Source: an uncultured Pelagibacteraceae bacterium
GTDB taxonomy: Bacteria > Pseudomonadota > Alphaproteobacteria > Pelagibacterales > Pelagibacteraceae
DNA: 44,314 nt
Assembly (NCBI GenBank): GCA_902574695.1
Contig: CACGON010000008.1
Span: forward strand, 1 to 44,314
Direction of reading: 5' to 3'
In this document: in pieces, positions 10,348 through 36,162 of the stretch
How positions within the stretch are numbered: position 1 is the first letter of the stretch
Layout: each line of letters starts with the position of its first letter
The notes under the pieces: generated by a model
What the model was told of the DNA's origin: nothing
Seen by the model: only the letters and a program-made list of their open reading frames with translations
The model's database searches: none
Position numbers and translations under genes: made by a program

Positions 10348-10749
10348 TTATCTACATTTTTTACATAATCCAAAAAACTCAAGATTGTATTTACTATATT
10401 TCATACCATCTTTGTCTTTGAAATTAGCTAGATATTTAGAGAGGCTTGAACTGCTTATTTCTGTAATTTTTTCACACATTTCACATATAGAAAAAGCCGT
10501 TGCTTTTGATACCTGGCAGCTCGAATTTTGACATGCAATAAAGGCATTTCGACTTTCAATTTTGTGAATTTTTCCCATTTCAACTAATTTATCCAAAGCC
10601 CTATATACTTGTAGCGGTGCTTTTATTCCTTTTTTTTGGACATTAAAAAGTATTGAATAAGCTTTTAATGGTTCAGGGGATTTATCAATTAAATCAAAAA
10701 TAATTTGCTGATTTTTTGTAAGATTATTTTCTTTATGCATTCTTCTCAT
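10348..10749 (-). CDS. zur: Fur-family zinc uptake regulator
   Basis: DNA-binding repressor of zinc import. The 133 residues show a Fur-family winged helix with the recognition segment APLQVYRALDKL (44-55), then HKIESRNAF, and two CxxC pairs, Cys89/Cys92 and Cys129/Cys132, which hold the structural zinc in Fur and Zur proteins. His62 and Cys73 align with the sensing-site ligands of E. coli Zur; Cys78 may supply a further ligand. Adjacency to znuB, znuC and znuA and the Zur-like palindromes upstream of that cluster argue for Zur rather than Fur. It starts 15 bases after znuB, so it should be in the znuC-znuB-zur operon and autoregulated. A second in-frame ATG lies at codon 4; the first has a GGAG upstream. 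Confidence 0.9.
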   Translation of the reverse strand: MRRMHKENNLTKNQQIIFDLIDKSPEPLKAYSILFNVQKKGIKAPLQVYRALDKLVEMGKIHKIESRNAFIACQNSSCQVSKATAFSICEMCEKITEISSSSLSKYLANFKDKDGMKYSKYNLEFFGLCKKCR

Positions 10750-10764
10750 TTTACCGATTCTCCA

Positions 10765-11568
10765 TTAGTTTTTCAATTTAATCGATTGTTTAATATTTAG
10801 TAACGACAATACAAATAACAATAAAGATGCAGCTATTATAGAAGGGCCTGATGCTGTATTAAATTCTAATGAGGAAAACAAACCTAAGCCTACGGATAAC
10901 AATCCTCCAATAATTGAGTAAAGTACCATTTTTTGCGGACTAGAGGATATGTTTCTAGCCATTGCAGCTGGTATAATTAACATTCCAGTAATTAATAATA
11001 GACCAACCATTTTTATAGATATTGCAATAATAGCTGCCATTAAAATTGTAAATATAGCCTTAGCTCTATCAGGATTTAAACCTTCCGCTTCTGCCAATTC
11101 ATAATTTACTGTTGATGCAAACAAAGGTTTCCAAATTAATTTTAAAATTAATAAAATTAATGCACCTCCAATCCAAATAATTAATAAATCATCAACTGTT
11201 ACCGCTAATATATCTCCAAATAATAGCCCCATAATATCGAATCTAATAAATGTTAAAAATCCAATTACAACGAGCCCAACAGCCAACGAGGAGTGAGCTA
11301 AAAGTCCAAGCAAAGCATCACCTGGTAGATTAGTTTTTTTTTGTAATTGTATTAAAATTAAAGCTATTAAAGATGAAATAATAAATACAGATAAAGCAAT
11401 ATTAAATTCTAAAGTATAAGCTAAAGTTACACCTAGTAAAGCAGAGTGGGCGAGCGTATCACCAAAATAAGACAATCTTCTCCATACCACAAAACATCCA
11501 AGGGGCCCTGTTACAAATGCAATCCCAATTCCTGCAAATAAAGCTCTTATAAAAAAATCGTCAAACAT
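10765..11568 (-). CDS. znuB: Zinc ABC transporter permease
   Basis: Inner-membrane permease of the high-affinity zinc importer, ABC-3 family. The 267 residues carry about eight hydrophobic helices; family landmarks are GPLGCFVVWRRLSYFGDTLAHSALLG near the N terminus, NYELAEAEGLNPDRAK in the cytoplasmic loop that contacts the ATPase, and LLLITGMLIIPAAMAR. It begins immediately after the znuC stop and is followed by zur. Manganese-type ABC-3 permeases look similar, but Zur and the His-rich ZnuA make zinc the best substrate call. Confidence 0.94.
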   Translation of the reverse strand: MFDDFFIRALFAGIGIAFVTGPLGCFVVWRRLSYFGDTLAHSALLGVTLAYTLEFNIALSVFIISSLIALILIQLQKKTNLPGDALLGLLAHSSLAVGLVVIGFLTFIRFDIMGLLFGDILAVTVDDLLIIWIGGALILLILKLIWKPLFASTVNYELAEAEGLNPDRAKAIFTILMAAIIAISIKMVGLLLITGMLIIPAAMARNISSSPQKMVLYSIIGGLLSVGLGLFSSLEFNTASGPSIIAASLLLFVLSLLNIKQSIKLKN

Positions 11569-12315
11569 TTAATTTTTTTTTATTTCTCCCTCACTAGTAT
11601 GAATATGATCGTGTCGGTGTTCATATCTTGATAATATTTGAGAAGCCTGTTCACCAAATAAAGCTTTATACTCATTATTTTTTGCCACATCTATTGGAGT
11701 ACCTGAGCAACATACATGACCATTTAAACAAACAACATGATCTGTAGCGCTCATTACAGTATGTAAATCATGAGAAATTAATAAAATACCGCAATTTAAT
11801 TCGTCAGAAATTTTCTTTATTAGTTCATATAAAGCTATCTCTCCCGTGAAATCCACACCTTGAACTGGTTCATCAAGAACTAGTAGTTCAGGTTTTTTTG
11901 AAATTGCTCTTGCAAGCAGAACTCTTTGGAACTCACCACCTGATAAGTCTCCTAAGTTTTTATTTTTAAGATGAATTACACCCGTTAAAGATAAAGCTTC
12001 GTTTATATCTTCCTCTTTAAGATTTTCAGTGAGTACCATAAAATCGTAAACTCTAAGAGGTAATGTCCAATCGATAGATATTTTTTGAGGAACATAACCA
12101 ACTTTGTCTGTATACTTTTCAACTTCTCCATCTATTTTCTTATAAATACCTAAAGCTATTTTGGCTGTAGTACTTTTCCCTGATCCATTCGGTCCGATAA
12201 GAGTAACTATTTTACCTTTCTCAACCTGAAGGGATACACCCTTAACCAGCCACTTATCATTTACTCGAAACCCAGCTTCTTTTAATTTTACTAATATATT
12301 TTGATTAGTGCTCAT
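11569..12315 (-). CDS. znuC: Zinc ABC transporter ATPase
   Basis: Energises ZnuB from the cytoplasmic face. It has Walker A GPNGSGKST (about 39-47), signature LSGGEFQR, Walker B LLVLDEP and the switch histidine in LLISHDLHTV. The C terminus is histidine-rich (RYEHRHDHIHTSEG), as is common in ZnuC and possibly metal-binding. The length of 248 residues is normal. It is the first gene of the znuC-znuB-zur operon, divergent from znuA across 71 bases holding two Zur-like sites; no ribosome binding site is obvious. Confidence 0.95.
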   Translation of the reverse strand: MSTNQNILVKLKEAGFRVNDKWLVKGVSLQVEKGKIVTLIGPNGSGKSTTAKIALGIYKKIDGEVEKYTDKVGYVPQKISIDWTLPLRVYDFMVLTENLKEEDINEALSLTGVIHLKNKNLGDLSGGEFQRVLLARAISKKPELLVLDEPVQGVDFTGEIALYELIKKISDELNCGILLISHDLHTVMSATDHVVCLNGHVCCSGTPIDVAKNNEYKALFGEQASQILSRYEHRHDHIHTSEGEIKKN

Positions 12316-12323
12316 TTTATTGC

Positions 12324-12352
12324 TTGACTTATATATGTTATATTATTACATA
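12324..12352 (+). promoter_or_regulatory. Candidate znuA promoter
   Basis: TTGACT at 12324-12329 is a good -35 hexamer, followed after 17 bases by TACATA at 12347-12352 as a modest -10. The first Zur-like palindrome (12336-12350) covers the spacer and -10, so Zur bound there would block polymerase. The -10 is not a strong match; an alternative (TATATT near 12356) is possible. Confidence 0.5.
12336..12350. promoter_or_regulatory. Zur box 1 (imperfect palindrome)
   Basis: TGTTATATTATTACA is a 15-base palindrome with one mismatched pair, close to the core of known gammaproteobacterial and alphaproteobacterial Zur sites (TGTTATAnTATAACA). It lies in the shared znuC/znuA promoter region, 18 bases centre to centre from the second copy. 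Confidence 0.72.
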
Positions 12353-12353
12353 T

Positions 12354-12368
12354 TGTTATATTATAACA
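12354..12368. promoter_or_regulatory. Zur box 2 (perfect palindrome)
   Basis: TGTTATATTATAACA is a perfect 15-base palindrome identical to the core of the E. coli Zur operator. It lies 18 bases upstream of the znuA ATG and about 39 bases from the znuC start, placed to repress both directions. Confidence 0.85.
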
Positions 12369-12386
12369 ACTTAAAATTTAAACATT

Positions 12387-13442
12387 ATGAAAAACCTTAA
12401 AAAACTACCAATATTATTATCAATATTATCATTATTAACTTTTTATACAAATGCTAACGCAGAGATAAAAGTAGTTACATCAATAAAACCAATACACTCT
12501 TTAGCTAGCTATCTAATGGATGGGGTTGGAAAACCAGATTTAATAGTAGATGGATATGCTTCTCCACATGGATTTGCTTTAAAACCATCACATGCGAAGA
12601 TGCTTCAAGAGGCTGATATTGTTTTTTGGGTAGGTGAAGATATAGAAAACTTCATGGTAAAACCATTAAATTCAATTGCCAAAAAAGCTGAAAAGATAGA
12701 GTTAATGGAAATTAAGGGAATAAATAAACTAAAATTTAGAGAAAGAAATATTTTCGATGGTCACGATGATCATGGACACAAAGAGGACGATCATGATGAT
12801 CATGCAAAAAAAGAGGATGATCATGACGATCATGATCATGATAAAGATAAAGAGCACGGACACGATGACCATGATAAAGATGAACATAAAGAGGATGGTC
12901 ATGATGATCACGGTCATGGACATGAAGGCCATGCACATGGAGAACACGATCCACATATATGGCTAGATCCAATGAATGCAAAAGTAATTTTAAGTGAAAT
13001 GGCTGAACATTTAATTGAAAATGATAAAAATAATGAAGCAAAGTATAAAGAAAATCTTAAGAAAGCTCACAAAGATTTAGACAAACTAACAAAAAAAGTA
13101 AAGGCTGAATTAAATAAAGATTTTAAATCTATTGTCTTTCATGATGCATACCAATATTTTGAAAAGAGATTTGATGTTAATGTTCTAGGAGCATTCACCG
13201 TAAACACAGATGTAATGCCTGGAGCTGAACAATTAGCTGAAATCAGGGAAATAATTGAACATGATAAAGTTAGTTGCATATTTTCCGAGCCTCAATTTAA
13301 TCCTGATATAATAAAGGCTGTAGCAAAAGATATGAATATTCAAACAGGAGTAATAGATCCACTAGGAGCTACTTTAAATCCTGGTAAAGATTTGTATTTT
13401 GATTTAATTGGCAACATGTCAAAATCTTTCAAAGGTTGCTAA
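12387..13442 (+). CDS. znuA: Zinc ABC transporter, periplasmic zinc-binding protein
   Basis: Captures zinc in the periplasm for ZnuBC. The signal peptide is residues 1-25 (cleavage after ANA). Likely zinc ligands by comparison with E. coli ZnuA are His61 (SPHGFALKP), His190 (DPHIWLDP) and His252 (VFHDAYQYF), with Asp324 (IDPLG) as a possible fourth. Cys297 and Cys351 match the conserved C-terminal disulphide. Between the first two ligands lies a His/Asp-rich loop (126-187) holding 19 histidines, longer and more acidic than many homologues. The gene is divergent from znuCB-zur and controlled by the two Zur boxes. It is not followed by an intrinsic terminator I can see. Confidence 0.96.
   Translation: MKNLKKLPILLSILSLLTFYTNANAEIKVVTSIKPIHSLASYLMDGVGKPDLIVDGYASPHGFALKPSHAKMLQEADIVFWVGEDIENFMVKPLNSIAKKAEKIELMEIKGINKLKFRERNIFDGHDDHGHKEDDHDDHAKKEDDHDDHDHDKDKEHGHDDHDKDEHKEDGHDDHGHGHEGHAHGEHDPHIWLDPMNAKVILSEMAEHLIENDKNNEAKYKENLKKAHKDLDKLTKKVKAELNKDFKSIVFHDAYQYFEKRFDVNVLGAFTVNTDVMPGAEQLAEIREIIEHDKVSCIFSEPQFNPDIIKAVAKDMNIQTGVIDPLGATLNPGKDLYFDLIGNMSKSFKGC
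12762..12947 (+). repeat. His/Asp-coding low-complexity repeat inside znuA
   Basis: Codes for residues 126-187 of ZnuA. Short units such as GATGATCATG and GATCATGATGATCATG recur in tandem-like fashion, translating to HDDH, DDHDDH and DHDHD runs. In-frame repeats of this kind can expand or contract by replication slippage, so loop length may differ between strains. They also create spurious long open frames in the other five frames. Confidence 0.8.
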
Positions 13443-27016: not shown

Positions 27017-29893
27017 TTAAGCAATTTTTTTGATTTTATTTTCAAGCATATCTTTAAGGAATTGACCAGTATAACTTCCTTTTACTTTAACTATTTCCTC
27101 AGGTTTTCCCTCTGCGATGATATTTCCACCTTTTACACCACCATCTGGCCCCATATCTATTATGTGATCGGATGTTTTTATTACATCTAGATTATGCTCA
27201 ATAACTACTACGGTATTTCCAGTAGCTACAAATGTGTGCAGAATTTCCAAAAGTTTTTTTATATCATGTTGATGTAAACCAGTAGTTGGTTCATCTAATA
27301 TATACACTGTTCTACCAGTGGATCTTCTTGAAAGCTCTTTTGCTAGCTTTATTCTTTGGGCCTCTCCACCAGATAAAGTTGTGGCTTGTTGACCAATTTT
27401 TATATAACCCAAACCTACTTTTTTTAAGGTTAACAATTTAGATCTTATATTTGGAATATTCTCAAAATAATCACAACCTTCATCCACAGTCATATTAAGA
27501 ACATCTGCAATACTTTTGTCTTTAAATTTAATTTCTAAAGTTTCTCTGTTGTAACGACTTCCTTTACACTCATCGCAGGTTATATAAACATCAGGTAAAA
27601 AATGCATCTCATATGTAATTACACCATCACCTTCACAAGCTTCACATCTTCCACCTTTAACATTAAATGAAAACCTCCCTGGTTTATAACCTCTACTTTT
27701 TGACTCAGGCAAACTGGTAAACCAATCTCTTATTGGCCCAAATGCACCAGTGTAAGTCGCTGGGTTTGACCTTGGAGTTCTTCCAATTGGTGATTGATCA
27801 ATATTAATTATTTTATCAACCAACTCTATACCTTTAAAAGTTTTAAAAGGCATAGGTATCTTTCTTGACTTGTTATTGTTAAGACTTAAATTTAAAGCGT
27901 TGTAAAGTGTTTGTAAAATTAAAGTAGATTTTCCACTGCCAGAAACACCAGTTACACATGTGAAACATCCAAAGGGAATTTTTAAATTAACATTTTGTAA
28001 ATTATTTCCTGTTGCACCGCCTAGCTGCAAAAATCGACCATTTTTTGCCAATTTTCGATTTTTTGGTATTGGTATAAATTTTTTATTGGAAAGATATTTA
28101 CCAGTTATACTTGTTTCGCTTTTAATAATATCTGAATAAGAACCTTGTGCAATTACTTCACCTCCTTTATTACCAGCCTCAGGGCCTAAATCGATTATAT
28201 GATCAGCATTCTCCATAGTTTCAGTATCATGTTCGACAACAATAACTGTATTACCTAAGTCTCTTAATCTTTTTAAAGCATCTATAAGTTTTACGTTATC
28301 TTTTTGATGTAACCCAATAGAAGGCTCATCCAATACATACAAAACACCTGTTAAGCCTGATCCTATTTGAGATGCCAACCTTATACGTTGTGCTTCTCCA
28401 CCTGACAATGTTCCAGATTCTCTAGATAATGTTAAATAATCGAGTCCAACGTTTAATAAAAAATTTAATCTTTCATTAATTTCTTTAAGTATGTGTTCTG
28501 CTATTTTTAAATCTCGCTTGCTTAAATTATTTTCTAAATCTTTAAACCATTTTTGAGCTTCTGTTATTGACTTTTCTGTTACTTCACTAATATGTAAATT
28601 ATTTATTTTTACACATAATGCTTCATCTTTTAAACGATATCCTTTACATACCTCACATTTTGTATCCGACTGATATTGAGATATCTCCTCTCTTTTCCAA
28701 TCACTATCAGTTTCAAGATATCTACGTTCTAAATTGTTAATAACTCCCTCAAATGTCTTTTTATGGGAATACTTTTCATATCCATCATCGTAGCTAAACT
28801 TAATTTCCTCATCATCTGATCCATACAAGATAATATCTTTAATTTTTTTGGGAATTCTTTCCCATTTATCATTAAGAGAAAAATTATAGTGTTTTGCAAG
28901 AGACGATAGTGTTTGAGCATAATATAAACTAGAAGATTTTGCCCATGGCTCTATAGCACCATCTGCAATTGTTTTTTTTGTATTTGGAACAACTAAATTT
29001 GGATCAACATTTAATTTAATACCTATCCCTTCACATTCTTCGCAAGCACCATAGGGACTATTGAAAGAGAACAGCCTTGGTTCAATTTCTTCAATTGTAA
29101 AACCACTTTCTGGACATGCAAATTTAGATGAAAAAATAATTCTTTCAGTTTTACGATATTTACTAGGCAAAGTTTCATTTTCATACTCTACAAAAACTAA
29201 ACCATTTGCCAAATTTAGCGAGGTTTCCAGGGCTTCTGCTAATCTATTACCCAATGAGTTATTTAATACTATACGATCAACTAAAATATGAATATCGTGT
29301 TTGATCTTTTTATTTAGTTCAGGAACTTTATCTATATCGTAAAGCTCACCATCGACTTTAATTTTTCTAAATCCACGTTTCTTAAATCCTTGTATATCTT
29401 TTTTGTATTCACCTTTACGTCCTCTAACTACTGGCGCATAAATAAAAATAGTTGATTTTTTTGGTATCTCTTTAATTTTATCAACCATTTGACTTATAGT
29501 TTGTGACTCTATTTTTTTTCCAGTAAATGGTGAGTAGGGTATACCAGCTCTTGCGTACAATACTCTCATATAGTCATAAATTTCAGTTACAGTTGCGACT
29601 GTTGATCTCGGGTTTTTTGATGTATTTTTTTGCTCAATCGATATAGCTGGGCTTAAGCCTTCAATTAAATCAACATTTGGTTTTTTCATTTTATCTAAAA
29701 ACTGACGAGCATATGCAGATAAACTTTCTACATATCTTCTTTGACCCTCAGCATAGATTGTATCGAAGGCTAATGAAGATTTTCCTGAGCCGGAAAGCCC
29801 AGTAATTACCACAAATTTTTCTTTTGGTATGGTTAAAGATACATTTTTTAAATTATGTTCTTTTGCCCCTTTAATAACTATGTTTTTGAGCAT
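27017..29893 (-). CDS. uvrA: Excinuclease ABC subunit A
   Basis: Damage-recognition ATPase of nucleotide excision repair. The 958 residues form two ABC modules: Walker [10 protein letters not shown] (32-40) and GVSGSGKST (near 650), and signatures [15 protein letters not shown] and [17 protein letters not shown]. The C-terminal zinc module CEACEGDG[11 protein letters not shown] is intact. In the first zinc knuckle the usual CPxC reads CPES, leaving CEECEG; as I recall this loss is common in alphaproteobacteria. It is divergent from ssb across 89 bases containing a long palindrome. Confidence 0.97.
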
Positions 29894-30437: not shown

Positions 30438-33017
30438 ATGCCAGAAATAGAAAAAATCAAAAATAATAATATTAAACCAATAGCAATGTATGATGAGATG
30501 AGCTCATCATATTTGTCTTACGCAATGAGCGTAATAGTAAGTAGAGCTTTACCAGACATAAGAGATGGCCTTAAACCTGTTCATAGAAGAATAATTTTTG
30601 CTATGCATAAAGGTGGCTTTGATTGGACAAAGCAGTTTCGTAAATCAGCAAGAATTGTTGGTGATGTTATAGGTAAATACCATCCTCACGGGGATCAAGC
30701 AGTTTATGACGCTTTAGTAAGAATGGTGCAAGATTTTTCGATGAGTATTCCTTTAATAGATGGACAAGGCAATTTTGGTTCAATAGATGGGGATCCTCCT
30801 GCAGCAATGAGATATACCGAAACGAAACTTGCAAAGATTTCCCAATATTTGATTGATGACATCGATAAACAAACTGTTTTATTTAAAAGTAATTATGATG
30901 AAACAGAGCAAGAACCCGTTGTTTTACCTGCTCAATATCCAAATCTTTTAGTCAATGGTGCAGGAGGTATTGCTGTAGGAATGGCGACAAGTATACCCCC
31001 TCACAATCTTGGAGAGGTAATAGATGGAACCTTAGCTTTCATTAATAATAAAGATATTAAAATTAATGAATTAATGAAACACATACCAGGACCAGACTTT
31101 CCCACTGGTGGAACAATTATAGGAAAAAGTATTTTAAAAGAGGGCTATAAAAATGGCAGAGGGTCTTTTAAAATAAGAGGAGAAATTAAAATTGAGCAAA
31201 GATCAAATGGAAAAGAACGTATAGTTATTACCTCAATACCATATCAAGTTAATAAATCTACACTTAATGAAAGGATCGTTGAATTAGTAAGAGAAAAAAA
31301 AATAGAAGGTATTAGCGATATTAGAGATGAGTCTAATCGTGATGGTATTAGAGTTGCGATCGACTTAAGACGAGGAGTCGAGCCAGAAACTGTTAAAAGA
31401 CAATTATATAAATATACATCAATAGAAAGCTCTTTTGGGTTTAATACATTAGCAATTGTAGATCAAAAACCAAAAAACTGTAATCTTAAAGACTTTATTG
31501 ATCATTTTTTAAAATTTAGAGAAGATGTAGTTATAAAAAAAACCAAGTTTGACCTAAAAAAAGCAGAAGACAGAGCGCACATTTTAATTGGATTATCAGT
31601 CTCTGTAGAAAATTTAGACAAAGTAATTAAAATCATTAGATCTTCAAAAACACCTGATGATGCCAAAAAAGATTTATCAAAAATAAAATGGAAAATTAAC
31701 AAAACTTCAAAATTTATTAAAATGATTGGCAATCAAAACCTTAAAAGTGGCTACACATTAAGCAACACACAAATCCATGCCATATTAGAGTTAAGACTTC
31801 AAAAGTTGACCGCAATGGGCATAAACGAAATTGAAGTTGAGATTAAAAAACTTTCAGAACTAATTATTAAATTTAAAAAAATTATTAATTCAAAAAAAGA
31901 ATTAATGAATGTTATAAGCCATGAATTAAAAAGTATAAAAGAAAAATTTGCTACCCCAAGGCGTACTAAAATTATTGATGCTGTATTAAATTATGATATA
32001 GAAGAAACAATTCAAAAAGAGTCTGTTTTAATTACAGTAACTTTACAAGGATATATCAAAAGAGGGTCGTTAAGTGCAGTAAAACAACAAAAAAGAGGTG
32101 GCAAGGGAAAATCTGGTATTAAGACAAGGCAAGAAGACTCTGTTGTACAAACTTTATCAGTCAATACACATACATCGGTTCTTTTCTTTTCAACCGAAGG
32201 ACTTGTATATAAAATAAAAGCTTGGAAAATCCCTGAGGGAACATCCTCTTCAAAAGGAAAATCTTTATTTAATATTTTACCCCTTAAAAATCATCAATCT
32301 ATAAGTTCTATTATGCCATTTCCTGAGGAGAAGACTGAGAAAAAAGATATGAATATAATTTTTGCAACAAGTTCAGGCAAAATTAGAAAAAATAGCTTAG
32401 ACGATTTTTCTTCAATAAATGCTTCTGGAAAAATAGCAATGAAATTGGATACTAATGACAAAATAATAGGTGTCAAAATTTGCAAAGACGATCAAGATAT
32501 TGTTTTAAGTACAAAATTAGGAAAATGCATCAGATTTGAGTCAAAAAAATTAAGAGTTTTCAAAGGCAGATCATCAAAGGGCATAAGAGGGCTAAATCTT
32601 GCAGAAAATGATGAAATAGTCTCATTATTTATTATTGATCATAATCAATCAAATGGTTCGAAAAAAAATAAAAAAGATGAATTACTAGAAACTAAGGCAA
32701 AGGAAAAATTTATTTTATCAATAACAGAAAATGGTTATGGAAAAAGAACATCACATTACGATTTTAGAGTAACAAATAGGGGCGGCAAAGGAATTATTGG
32801 TATAGTGAATTCACAAAGAAATGGCAATGTATCGTCATCATTCCCAGTAGATAGTGGTGATGAAATACTAATATCTACTAATAAAGGTCGTGTAATTCGA
32901 GTAGCCGTTAAAGAAATAAGAGTTGCAGGAAGGAATACCCAAGGTGTAAGAATTATTAAACTTTCAGGTGATGAAAAAGTTGTATCTGCAATTAAAATAG
33001 AGGACAATTTAATATAA
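30438..33017 (+). CDS. gyrA: DNA gyrase subunit A
   Basis: Breaks and rejoins DNA in the ATP-driven negative supercoiling done by GyrA2B2. Active-site Tyr126 is in AAMRYTE. The quinolone-pocket segment [18 protein letters not shown] has Gln87 at the position of E. coli Ser83, while Asp91 matches E. coli Asp87. The GyrA box of the C-terminal wrapping domain reads [11 protein letters not shown] (about 551-561), separating it from ParC. The length of 859 residues is normal. It ends with a TAATG overlap onto coaD. Confidence 0.97.
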
Positions 33018-33511
33018 TGACAAAAACTATTTTATACCCTGGAACATTTGACCCAATAACTTATGGACATATTGATTTAATTAAAAAAGCTTTAAAAATT
33101 GGAGATAAGATAATAGTAGCAATATCTGAAAATGGGAAGAAAAACTATCTATTTGAACCAGATGAGAGAGTTACGTTAGTGAAAAACTCGCTCTTTAAAG
33201 ATTTGAAGATGAACCCAAAAAAAATAAAAGTAATTTCTTTTAATTCACTCACTACAGAACTCTGCAAAAAGAATAATGCTAATATTATATTAAGAGGTTT
33301 AAGAGCTGTATCTGATTTTGAATATGAGTTTCAACTAGCTGGTATGAATAGAAAATTAAACCATAATATTGAAACAATGTTTTTGATGTCGGATGTTGAA
33401 AATCAAATTATATCGTCGAAATTTGTTAAAGAAATAATTGAATTACGAGGAAATGTTAATAAATTTACCTCAAAAAGTGTTATTAAGGCTTTAAAGGAAA
33501 AATATGCATAA
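33017..33511 (+). CDS. coaD: Phosphopantetheine adenylyltransferase
   Basis: Transfers AMP from ATP to 4'-phosphopantetheine, the penultimate step of coenzyme A synthesis. The 164 residues have the nucleotidyltransferase motif GTFDPITYGHID (the T/HxGH box), ILRGLRAVSDFEYEFQLAGMNR, and ISSKFVKEI near the C terminus. The gyrA-coaD-cyclophilin order is conserved in alphaproteobacteria. It overlaps the next gene by 8 bases (ATGCATAA). Confidence 0.96.
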   Translation: MTKTILYPGTFDPITYGHIDLIKKALKIGDKIIVAISENGKKNYLFEPDERVTLVKNSLFKDLKMNPKKIKVISFNSLTTELCKKNNANIILRGLRAVSDFEYEFQLAGMNRKLNHNIETMFLMSDVENQIISSKFVKEIIELRGNVNKFTSKSVIKALKEKYA

Positions 33512-34058
33512 AATATTCTTAATTATCTTTTTTTTTTTAACAATAACTAATGCAACCCAATCAAAGGAGAATATTATGATACTAAAATTAAAAGATGGTG
33601 ATGTGGAAATTCAATTATTTCCAGATGTTGCACCTAAGCATGTAGAGAGAATTCAAAAATTAGCAAATGATGGACAGTATGATAATGTAGTTTTCCATAG
33701 AGTGATTGATGGATTTATGGCACAAACTGGTGATGTAAAATTTGGAAATTCATCAAATGACAGTTTTGATATTAATAGAGCAGGCATGGGAGGATCCAAT
33801 CTTCCAAATCTAAAAGCTGAATTTAATAGTCTACCACATGAAAAAGGGACTTTATCTATGGCAAGATCATCTGATCCTGATAGCGCAAATAGCCAATTTT
33901 TTATTTGTTTTGAAGCTGCTCCTCATTTAGACAGAAATTACACAGTATTTGGAAAGGTAATAAACGGTATGGAATTCGTTGATAAAATTAAAAGAGGCGA
34001 AGGACAAAATGGTGCTGTAACTAATCCTGATAAAATAATTAGCTTTAAATCTAAGTAG
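33504..34058 (+). CDS. Cyclophilin-type peptidyl-prolyl isomerase with optional signal peptide
   Basis: Catalyses cis-trans isomerisation of proline peptide bonds. The full frame is 184 residues: a probable Sec signal at 1-20 (HK, then IFLIIFFFLTIT, then NATQS), then a complete cyclophilin domain with VVFHRVIDGFMAQTGD, GTLSMARSSDPDSANSQFFICF and LDRNYTVFGKV. The catalytic arginine and the FMAQTGD and SQFFI motifs are present. The start at 33504 overlaps coaD by 8 bases, but a second in-frame ATG at 33576 has an excellent AAAGGAG six bases upstream and begins exactly at the domain (MILKLKDGDVEIQLFP), like the cytosolic PpiB form. In many alphaproteobacteria two tandem cyclophilin genes, exported and cytosolic, occupy this position; here there is one. 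Confidence 0.93.
   Translation: MHKIFLIIFFFLTITNATQSKENIMILKLKDGDVEIQLFPDVAPKHVERIQKLANDGQYDNVVFHRVIDGFMAQTGDVKFGNSSNDSFDINRAGMGGSNLPNLKAEFNSLPHEKGTLSMARSSDPDSANSQFFICFEAAPHLDRNYTVFGKVINGMEFVDKIKRGEGQNGAVTNPDKIISFKSK
33563..33569 (+). promoter_or_regulatory. Internal Shine-Dalgarno sequence in the cyclophilin gene
   Basis: AAAGGAG ends six bases before an in-frame ATG at 33576-33578, at ideal spacing. In a genome where most starts lack a recognisable ribosome binding site, this is among the two or three best in the window. It would yield a 160-residue protein without the signal peptide. Confidence 0.65.
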
Positions 34059-34066
34059 CATGATAA

Positions 34067-35179
34067 ATGACATTAAAAAAATTTTCTTTTAATGTTGATA
34101 GTAATGATAATTTAGCTAGGACAGGTATTATTAAAACCCATAGAGGCGAAATTAGAACTCCAGCATTTATGCCTGTTGGTACCCAAGCTACTGTTAAAGC
34201 AACTTTTGTAGATGATATAAAAAAAACTGGCGCAGACATAATATTAGGCAATACATATCATTTAATGATAAGACCAGGTGTTGAAAGAATTGAAGACGCT
34301 GGCGGATTACATAAATTTATGAATTGGCCATATCCAATACTTACCGACTCTGGTGGTTTTCAAGTTATGTCCTTATCAAAACTTACTAAAATTGACCAAG
34401 AGAGAGGAGCTATTTTTAATTCTCATATTGATGGGAAAGAATTTATTTTAAGTCCGGAAGAAAGTATCAGAATCCAAAAAGGTCTTAATTCAGATATATT
34501 AATGGTATTAGATGAGTGTCCAAAAAAAACAAATGATAAAAAAATCATTAAAAAATCATTAGATTTATCAACTTATTGGGCTGACAGATCTAAAAATGCT
34601 TTTGGTTCAAATCCTAACAAAGCTTTGTTTGGCATTGTGCAGGGTGGTTTATTTGATGATTTGCGTATTGAATCATTAAATCAATTAGAAAATATCGGTT
34701 TTGATGGTTATGCTCTTGGCGGATTAGCTGTTGGTGAAACACAAAACGAGATGTTTAAAGTTTTAGATAACATTACCAATTACATGCCTAGAAATAAACC
34801 CAGATATCTAATGGGTGTTGGTACACCAGCAGATATCTTAGGTGCCGTTAAAAGAGGTATTGATATGTTTGATTGTGTAATGCCATCAAGGTCAGGAAGA
34901 ACAGGATTAGCTTTTACGTGGAAAGGAAGATTAAATCTTAGAAACTCAAAATATCAAAAGGATAATACACCCCTTGACGAAAAATGTGACAAATTTAACC
35001 TAAATAAATATTCAAAAAATTACATGAATCATCTCTTTAATACTAACGAAATATTAGCATCAATGTTGCTTACGCTTCATAATATCAATTTTTATCAGGA
35101 TTTAATGCAATCAATAAGAGATAATATAAAAAAAGGAACCTTTTTAGAGTTTCATGATAAATATATTAATATCTTGTGA
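34067..35179 (+). CDS. tgt: tRNA-guanine transglycosylase with degraded zinc site
   Basis: Exchanges guanine-34 for preQ1 in tRNAs with GUN anticodons, on the way to queuosine. The 370 residues form a TIM barrel with LTDSGGFQVMSL (Asp94, general base position), GIVQGGLFDDLR, ALGGLAVGE and DMFDCVMPSRSGRTG (nucleophile position Asp269). The C-terminal zinc motif is abnormal: the usual CxCxxC reads CDKFNL, so Cys307 remains but the second and third cysteines are Lys309 and Leu312; the final ligand His338 (TLHN) is kept. The rest of the block (PLDEKC, YSKNYMNHLF, EILASMLLTLHN) is well conserved. queA, often next door, is absent here. It may still fold without zinc or be impaired. Confidence 0.92.
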   Translation: MTLKKFSFNVDSNDNLARTGIIKTHRGEIRTPAFMPVGTQATVKATFVDDIKKTGADIILGNTYHLMIRPGVERIEDAGGLHKFMNWPYPILTDSGGFQVMSLSKLTKIDQERGAIFNSHIDGKEFILSPEESIRIQKGLNSDILMVLDECPKKTNDKKIIKKSLDLSTYWADRSKNAFGSNPNKALFGIVQGGLFDDLRIESLNQLENIGFDGYALGGLAVGETQNEMFKVLDNITNYMPRNKPRYLMGVGTPADILGAVKRGIDMFDCVMPSRSGRTGLAFTWKGRLNLRNSKYQKDNTPLDEKCDKFNLNKYSKNYMNHLFNTNEILASMLLTLHNINFYQDLMQSIRDNIKKGTFLEFHDKYINIL

Positions 35180-35230: not shown

Positions 35231-35306
<76 letters not shown>

Positions 35307-35313
35307 TTTTTTT

Positions 35314-36162
35314 ATGATAAACGTATGTATTGTTAAACCAAAGAATTACGTACATTATCAAGCTTTCATAGAGATTGCTGAACTTTTACATTTTTCACTA
35401 CTTGACTTAAATTATAAATCTCAGATTACTTTTAATTATTTTGATGAAAAACCTGAGTCATTAAACATAGTATTTGGTGCACATTTACTAAATGACGACT
35501 TAATAGATATTATACCAAAGAATACCGTAATATTTAATACTGAACAAATTGAGTCAATTACTAAAGAGTGGAGCTCAAAACTTTTAAAACTTGCATCAAA
35601 AAAGATTACATTTTGGGATTATAGTAAATACAATTTAGATTATTTATTCAAAAAAATTCAAATAAAAGGCGAACTATTTCAAATTGGTTATCAGAAAGAA
35701 CTTCATCGCATCGAACATAAAAAAAATAAAGATATAGATGTTTTATTTTATGGATCAGTTAATCCAAGAAGGAAAGAAGTATTAGATGAATTAATTAAAA
35801 AAAAAATAAAGGTAAAATCGCTCTTTGGTGTCTATGGAAAAGAAAGAGATGATATTATAGCAAATTCAAAAATTATTTTAAATATGCACATGTATGACTC
35901 AAAAATCTTTGAAATAATAAGGGTTTTTTATTTGCTAACAAATGGCATAGCTGTTGTAAGTGAAGTAGGTGAAAATACAAAATATAATAATGATTATTTA
36001 AATTATATTTGTAGTTGTCATTATGAAAATCTTGAAGAAAGAATATTTCATTTACTTAAAAATGACGATGAAAGAGAGACATTAGCAATTAACGGATTGG
36101 ATAGAATTAAAAAATTTCCACAACATATTTTTACAAATAAAATAATTTCTAATTTATTTTAG
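35314..36162 (+). CDS. Glycosyltransferase-like protein (GT-B, group 1 / CgeB-like), substrate unknown
   Basis: The 282 residues match the C-terminal half of GT-B glycosyltransferases: DIDVLFYGSVNPRRKEVLDEL at the start of the nucleotide-sugar domain, then SLFGVYGKERDDIIANSKIILNMHMYDSKIFEIIR and YLLTNGIAVVSEVGENTKY, which resemble the donor-binding region with its conserved acidic residues. The N-terminal half is divergent. The sugar and acceptor cannot be told. I set the start at 35314 (MINVCIV), seven bases after the tRNA; an open frame reaching back to 35272 would run through the tRNA and is not credible. No other polysaccharide gene adjoins it. It is convergent with the M48 protease gene, sharing a TTAG at the stops. 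It may be read through from the tRNA promoter. Confidence 0.8.
   Translation: MINVCIVKPKNYVHYQAFIEIAELLHFSLLDLNYKSQITFNYFDEKPESLNIVFGAHLLNDDLIDIIPKNTVIFNTEQIESITKEWSSKLLKLASKKITFWDYSKYNLDYLFKKIQIKGELFQIGYQKELHRIEHKKNKDIDVLFYGSVNPRRKEVLDELIKKKIKVKSLFGVYGKERDDIIANSKIILNMHMYDSKIFEIIRVFYLLTNGIAVVSEVGENTKYNNDYLNYICSCHYENLEERIFHLLKNDDERETLAINGLDRIKKFPQHIFTNKIISNLF

Follow-up and report, generated by a model that had tools for sequence, protein, structure and literature searches.

Results

The window Tgt lacks the canonical zinc site

The DNA analyzed here, the window, is a stretch of 44,314 nucleotides from an uncultured Pelagibacteraceae bacterium whose genome is 88% complete. Behind gyrA, coaD and a peptidyl-prolyl isomerase gene (ppi) it carries tgt, the single match to PF01702 in that genome. 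The locus comprises the following features (citations marked "in part" refer to portions of a paper).

30438–33017, plus strand: gyrA, first gene of the conserved order, named by sequence
33017–33511, plus strand: coaD, named by sequence
33504–34058, plus strand: ppi, named by sequence
34059–34066, plus strand: ppi-tgt junction, the site of queA in the sister family, by gene-order comparison
34067–35179, plus strand: tgt, encoding a tRNA-guanosine(34) transglycosylase of 370 residues that lacks the zinc site, by TIGR00430 and a fold as in Z. mobilis Tgt
34346–34348, plus strand: catalytic Asp94 (Z. mobilis Asp102), by alignment
34718–34738, plus strand: GGLAVGE, preQ1-type base pocket, by sequence; meaning of the motif from PMC11570991 (in part)
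34871–34873, plus strand: nucleophile Asp269 (Z. mobilis Asp280), by alignment
34985–34987, plus strand: Cys307, first zinc-ligand position, C, V, T or I in the genus, by alignment
34991–34993, plus strand: Lys309, replacing the second zinc cysteine, by alignment
35000–35002, plus strand: Leu312, replacing the third zinc cysteine, Leu in 39/39 genus proteins, by alignment
35078–35080, plus strand: His338, fourth zinc-ligand position, Asn in 14/39 genus proteins, by alignment

A tRNA-Lys(TTT) gene (35231–35314) lies directly behind tgt; an open reading frame listed from 35272 overlaps it, and its gene more likely starts at 35314.

The window Tgt scored 460.8 bits against the NCBIfam equivalog TIGR00430 (curated cut-off, 306.75) and is 54–56% identical to Z. 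mobilis Tgt (PDB 1pud, 1ozm), the reference bacterial preQ1-type enzyme, with which it has in common the catalytic Asp pair, the preQ1 pocket and, at the level of sequence, a Tyr and a His matching the dimer hot spot. Asp94, Asp149, Cys151, Gln192, Asp269 and the GGLAVGE motif are all present, and positions 94 and 269 are Asp in every non-gapped row (356 and 357, respectively) of a 359-row alignment, in agreement with the initial annotation, which had called both catalytic aspartates conserved.

In a normal Tgt, a small hairpin of the C-terminal part is fastened by zinc to the final long helix, close to where the dimer forms. The C-H-C-A-V-C stretch of Z. mobilis Tgt aligns with C-D-K-F-N-L in the window Tgt, and the four zinc positions are occupied by Cys307, Lys309, Leu312 and His338, as opposed to Cys, Cys, Cys and His in known bacterial Tgts (C318-C320-C323-H349 in Z. 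mobilis); residues and numbering are exactly those of the initial annotation. The CxCxxC...H signature is absent, and we classed the protein as a zinc-site-less variant rather than a typical Tgt. The Tgt zinc residues have been called highly conserved in a review (PMC4425180, in part), and a structural paper treats the zinc domain as a TGT hallmark (PMC6165067, in part). Within the literature searched, the scope of which left out most subscription journals, we found no description of zinc-site loss in Tgt.

Relatives share the loss, with replacement residues that differ between families

A Tgt match was found in 53 of 61 genomes searched (the window's own, 36 of the same genus and 24 of the same order). 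CxCxxC was absent from all 50 of these loci that were read, i.e. from the window (1 locus) and from 49 relatives (29 of the same genus, 20 of the same order), which rules out a sequencing error or local decay; intact sites in relatives would have pointed to either, according to the initial annotation.

The residues at the former site were compared in a genus set of 39 distinct proteins, 31 from the genome search (including the window's) and eight from named single cells placed by similarity. Position 307 is Cys in 26, Val in 10, Thr in two and Ile in one; position 309 is Asn in 22, Lys in 14 and another residue in three; position 338 is His in 25 and Asn in 14. Position 312 is invariably Leu, and position 310 is Phe, Leu or Met throughout. 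All four ligand positions thus vary from the canonical residues within the genus, some members reading V-K-L-N or I-K-L-N, and because congeners read V-K-L-N, the original positions are unable to form a zinc site. In the sister SAR11 family, the zinc positions are fixed as S-N-C-H in 21 of 21 distinct proteins, while the sole other genus of the window's family that was read (G143) shows V-C-S-H and the single cell AG-918-B08 C-L-L-H. The site is absent from all 62 SAR11 rows read, whose assignment to SAR11 rests on the titles of their nearest named records, Candidatus Pelagibacteraceae. The replacement residues are therefore conserved within, but different between, the window's family and the sister family.

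The sequences would also be compatible with a zinc bound by other residues or shared by two protomers, which would count against a metal-free protein. A Cys and a His do remain in the window Tgt, and the sister family retains one of each, as would be expected if the metal were still bound via substitute ligands. However, some members of the same genus offer only Val-Lys-Leu-Asn or Ile-Lys-Leu-Asn, and no new Cys or His position has become fixed near the site: within residues 303–323 and 334–344, only Asp304 and His322 are fixed in the genus among Cys, His, Asp and Glu, the latter residue being present in nearly every Tgt. We consider binding through substitute ligands very unlikely.

Loss of queA from an old gene order is separate from loss of the zinc site

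The order gyrA-coaD-ppi-tgt of the window's family and genus contrasts with gyrA-coaD-ppi-queA-tgt in the sister family, complete in one stretch (L101) and represented by queA-tgt in shorter ones; coaD-ppi-queA-tgt also occurs in Mesorhizobium and in Rhizobium sp. Q54. In the window's family, queA has been cut out of this old gene order. The initial annotation had reported queA missing from the locus and suggested a survey of the other queuosine genes. Indeed, queA was found neither at the window locus nor in the window's own genome (88% complete) nor in any of 33 distinct window-family genomes (0/10 and 0/24), of which four are single-contig assemblies, 99–100% complete, and most others 55–86% complete; it was found in 12 of 13 sister-family genomes (over the cut-off in 11). 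Likewise, queG was found in none of ten window-family genomes versus 12 of 13 from the sister family, and QueC gave no match over the cut-off in 23 genomes of both families. The YhhQ/QPTR transporter was detected in eight of ten window-family genomes, the window's own included, and in nine of 13 sister-family genomes; it was not found in two of the former (86% and 83% complete) and four of the latter. The presence of QueF in these genomes was considered and rejected: all 26 PF14489 matches were weak, including one in G009 that exceeded the cut-off by 0.7 bits, and the match in the window's own genome is FolE.

A link between the loss of zinc and the loss of queA was ruled out, as the site is also gone where queA is kept; for instance, genomes G067, G099 and G275 combine a zinc-less Tgt with queA. 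Zinc loss is therefore neither cause nor result of queA loss. As queA and queG were not found in the window's family, the window enzyme probably uses imported preQ1, which would be its final base.

A similar gene set has been described for B. henselae (PMC11570991, in part, which we take to be Quaiyum et al., 2024). Like the window's family, B. henselae has tgt and QPTR without queA and queG, and its bTGT carries a GGLAVGE pocket and, with preQ1, gives partial complementation of an E. coli queDF tgt mutant, although B. henselae, unlike the window's lineage, is facultatively intracellular. Bartonella and Pelagibacter were both proposed to salvage preQ1 with tgt and QPTR (PMC11570991, in part); here, by contrast, the sister family has queA and queG (12/13 each) and the window's family neither. 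Zinc is never mentioned in the main text of that paper.

The initial annotation had also raised altered substrate use, i.e. that queuine or another base is now used and that zinc loss accompanies the remodeling. The combination of tgt and QPTR without queA and queG (here queA 0/33, queG 0/10, QPTR 8/10) is indeed what queuine salvagers such as Chlamydia trachomatis carry, and the B. henselae enzyme accepts queuine at high concentration, which would make a minor use possible (PMC11570991, in part). However, queuine salvagers of the Chlamydia type have the pocket motif GG[LS][AS]G (taken from PMC11570991, in part, rather than from sequence), whereas the window Tgt has GGLAVG, and GLAV together with Cys151, as in preQ1 enzymes, is found in 39 of 39 genus proteins. 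In addition, relatives with queA have lost the site to the same extent. With an unchanged preQ1 pocket, a new substrate is not supported as the reason for the loss, and we regard this explanation as unlikely.

tgt is under purifying selection and retains a predicted Tgt fold

In three close pairs with unsaturated dS (0.25–0.63), dN/dS of tgt was 0.030, 0.071 and 0.056; in wider pairs (dS above 1.3), it was 0.06–0.14. In the C-terminal part, pN lay below the whole-protein value in seven of ten pairs and slightly above it in three. tgt is thus under purifying selection. Asp149, Cys151, Gln192, GLAV (219–222), Met249, Asp269, Tyr315, Tyr319 and His322 are identical in all 39 genus proteins, and Asp94 is present in the 37 without a gap there. 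The last three of the invariant residues are the counterparts, by alignment of the monomer sequences, of the aromatic hot spot Trp326, Tyr330 and His333 of the Z. mobilis Tgt homodimer (PMC5395182, in part).

An AlphaFold model computed from 48 sequences predicts a TIM barrel with a C-terminal subdomain at a mean pLDDT of 91.9, with blocks at 86–98 over residues 301–370; models of this type are blind to the presence of a metal. The model superimposes on Z. mobilis Tgt with a TM-score of 0.96, and its 50 best PDB matches (TM-scores 0.93–0.96) are all Z. mobilis-type Tgts by title.

These data bear on the idea that the window Tgt is a decaying relic, which has mostly lost its function with queA and queG and whose ligands drift. 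Such decay would fit the failure to find queA and queG in the window's family, the broken tgt frame of one relative (G025) and the situation in Bartonella, where tgt has decayed in some species and a preserved tgt goes with trace preQ1 only (PMC11570991, in part). The low dN/dS in close pairs, the presence of tgt in all 18 genus and order genomes that are at least 90% complete, the fixed catalytic residues and the equally complete ligand loss in families that keep queA argue against it, and we give it little credence. The view of the initial annotation, loss of the metal site from an enzyme kept under selection, is supported by the dN/dS values and by the regular presence of the gene.

Zinc-site loss recurs across Alphaproteobacteria

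The site was then read in an even draw of 289 genomes of the class, 270 of which had a Tgt. The 160 loci read, from 159 genomes, comprise the 30 best, 70 of 80 lower-scoring picks and 60 more, with the very lowest scorers partly excluded; 125 are intact, 32 have lost the site and three were set aside (L215, L238, L239), i.e. the site is absent from 32 of 157 readable loci. Across the 118 families of this sample, loss was seen in 23, with both states in three. A second, named set consists of the 80 loci nearest to SAR11 Tgt and is not random; 46 are intact, 32 are lost (ten of them SAR11) and two were set aside (L124, L135). Losses in it sort by order: the site is lost in Hyphomicrobiales (11/11), Caulobacterales (6/6), Parvularculales (1/1) and one of four Acetobacterales, and intact in Rhodobacterales (11/11), Sphingomonadales (6/6) and Rhodospirillales (3/3); of two Rickettsiales, one is intact and one was set aside. 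By eye, L215, L124 and L135 appear lost; they are not counted. Outside the class, all 50 readable loci from 24 families of other Pseudomonadota classes are intact, with one set aside (L338); these 51 loci, the 30 best and 21 mostly low-scoring ones, come from 106 that gave a match. The site is also intact in the named loci whose titles place them in other classes. Eighteen further Alphaproteobacteria from the phylum sample, 16 lost and two intact, are mostly low-scoring rows and give no rate.

Over all rows, four ligands are retained in 223, three in two, two in 69, one in 42 and none in 17, so that only two of the 130 altered rows have three ligands left; as the rows are related and not independent, these counts are no statistical test. 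Such rarity of single-change sites is expected if the ligand residues served only the metal.

On a Tgt tree, the zinc state changes 14 times with the zinc columns included and 17 times without them. After collapsing weak branches, 17 losses remain at SH-aLRT thresholds of 50 or 80 and 11 at a threshold of 95. The tree covers one gene, with 223 of 284 proteins left after thinning at 85% identity and the phylum sample excluded, and comes from a quick search under LG+G4; its backbone is poorly supported (SH-aLRT 9 and 38 for two large groups lacking the site), and about a dozen zinc-site losses is a safe statement. Zinc-site loss is common in Alphaproteobacteria, soil bacteria included, and the metal seems dispensable in this group.

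Several individual sequences stand out. In one family (f144; L358, L366, L369), the four zinc positions read Ser-Trp-Thr/Ala-Ile. Trp here stands in for the second cysteine and Ile replaces the His, as though the space of the metal were taken up by a bulky side chain. L365 has His-x-His-x-x-Leu...Ala, i.e. two cysteines have become His and the other two ligands are gone. Outside Alphaproteobacteria, L342 and L350 (family f157) have an intact CxCxxC followed by an insert of about 13 residues. L378, probably of Hyphomicrobiales, has lost the zinc site and has no queA between ppi and tgt, and has separately reached the same end state as the window's family. In G104, G236, G304, G328 and G025, all single genomes, the Tgt match has an internal stop codon, which may reflect decay, assembly error or recoding.

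The Tgt of G659 is closest to those of Brucella and Mesorhizobium (74–76% identity), with S-C-A-N at the zinc positions. Its gene order is gyrA-coaD-ppi-ppi-tgt, with no queA match in the 14 kb stretch, and its GGLAVGE motif stands at residue 216 or, if the other start is chosen, 217, compared to 216 in B. henselae (PMC11570991, in part). G659 thus fits Bartonella as far as its sequence goes. If the same is true of B. henselae, the function of a Tgt devoid of zinc ligands would already have been demonstrated, unnoticed. B. henselae Tgt may serve as an analog; all 11 named Tgts read from its order lack the site.

The distribution of losses lends no support to zinc scarcity as a general cause

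The window also holds a zinc uptake cluster, listed here as context:

10348–10749, minus strand: Fur-family regulator nearest to Zur, at 66.5 bits against a cut-off of 167
10765–13442, both strands: ZnuB-like permease (minus), ATPase (minus) and ZnuA (plus), by profiles, the ATPase by sequence and position

The initial annotation had described a full Zur/Znu system. The cluster is present in outline, and ZnuA (279.6 bits) exceeds its cut-off of 268, but the matches of the Fur-family regulator and of the ZnuB-like permease (231 bits; cut-off 284) lie below theirs. ZnuA (12387–13442) contains a very long insert rich in His and Asp.

Within the named set, the soil- or plant-dwelling Rhizobium, Mesorhizobium, Xanthobacter and Caulobacter lack the site. 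It is retained in the marine genera Loktanella, Nioella, Pseudooceanicola and Thalassospira and in AG-911-F16, a single cell that is likewise marine. Zinc-free paralogs of ribosomal proteins under Zur control have lost the cysteine ligands of the zinc protein. On the model of these variants, the zinc-poor open ocean might have selected for removal of the site; the initial annotation had listed zinc sparing among several possibilities, and the zinc uptake cluster does lie in the window. Ligand cysteines are lost in both cases; however, unlike in the Zur-controlled ribosomal paralogs, the window's genome (88% complete, one PF01702 match) shows no second, zinc-containing Tgt copy. Moreover, losses in the named set follow order and not the sea, with 11/11 Hyphomicrobiales and 6/6 Caulobacterales lost and 11/11 Rhodobacterales, several of them marine, intact, although this comparison amounts to a few clades, since losses sort by order. 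Finally, the site is absent from all 62 SAR11 rows, while znuA occurs in 50% of surveyed SAR11 genomes, and the genomes with it have no more zinc-binding domains (PMC4771312, in part). Zinc scarcity is not supported as a general cause, and we consider zinc sparing quite improbable; the disappearance of a zinc site close to a Zur/Znu cluster is not in itself a sign of zinc scarcity.

The first zinc module of UvrA usually has a CxxC motif. In the window's UvrA (27017–29893, minus strand), this module reads C-P-E-S-G, with one ligand seemingly lost, and the second (CEAC, CDEC) is intact; this may parallel the situation in Tgt.

Discussion

We consider it probable that the window's tgt encodes a working bacterial preQ1-type Tgt that does without the structural zinc and that probably leaves salvaged preQ1 as the final wobble base. 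A metal-free protein is supported by the finding that two sister families have arrived at two fixed but different solutions (Leu312 in 39/39 proteins; S-N-C-H in 21/21). Judging from the conserved residues, ordinary packing may replace the zinc tie, provided by a small or hydrophobic side chain at position 307 together with hydrophobic ones at 310 and 312. As active site, preQ1 pocket and dimer hot-spot counterparts are unchanged, the enzyme would still exchange G34 of tRNAs with GUN anticodons for preQ1, which would be taken up by the YhhQ/QPTR transporter and probably left as the final base. The metal would have been lost before, and independently of, queA.

Mutation of the zinc cysteines in E. 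coli Tgt reportedly destroyed zinc binding and activity, i.e. the metal is needed in that background. According to a wider reading, to which we give an even chance of being right, an ancestral permissive change in alphaproteobacterial Tgt made zinc dispensable, after which the metal was lost repeatedly in favor of different metal-free staples, and the window's lineage went on to install salvaged preQ1 as the final base. Such staples could be Leu with Phe or Leu in the window's genus, S-N-P-C in the sister family, S-C-A/S/T-N in Rhizobiales and Trp with Ile in another family.

With about 11–17 losses in one class, as opposed to 0/50 readable loci of other Pseudomonadota classes, these enzymes constitute a natural experiment. 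As losses also occur in cultured bacteria, exchanges between relatives offer a direct test of the role of zinc in Tgt and of what allows a protein to dispense with it.

Cells of the SAR11 group are among the most abundant in the sea. In a natural context, preQ1 has been reported only as traces, in B. henselae (PMC11570991, in part). If preQ1 is truly the end point in the window's family, a large share of marine bacterial tRNA may contain this base.
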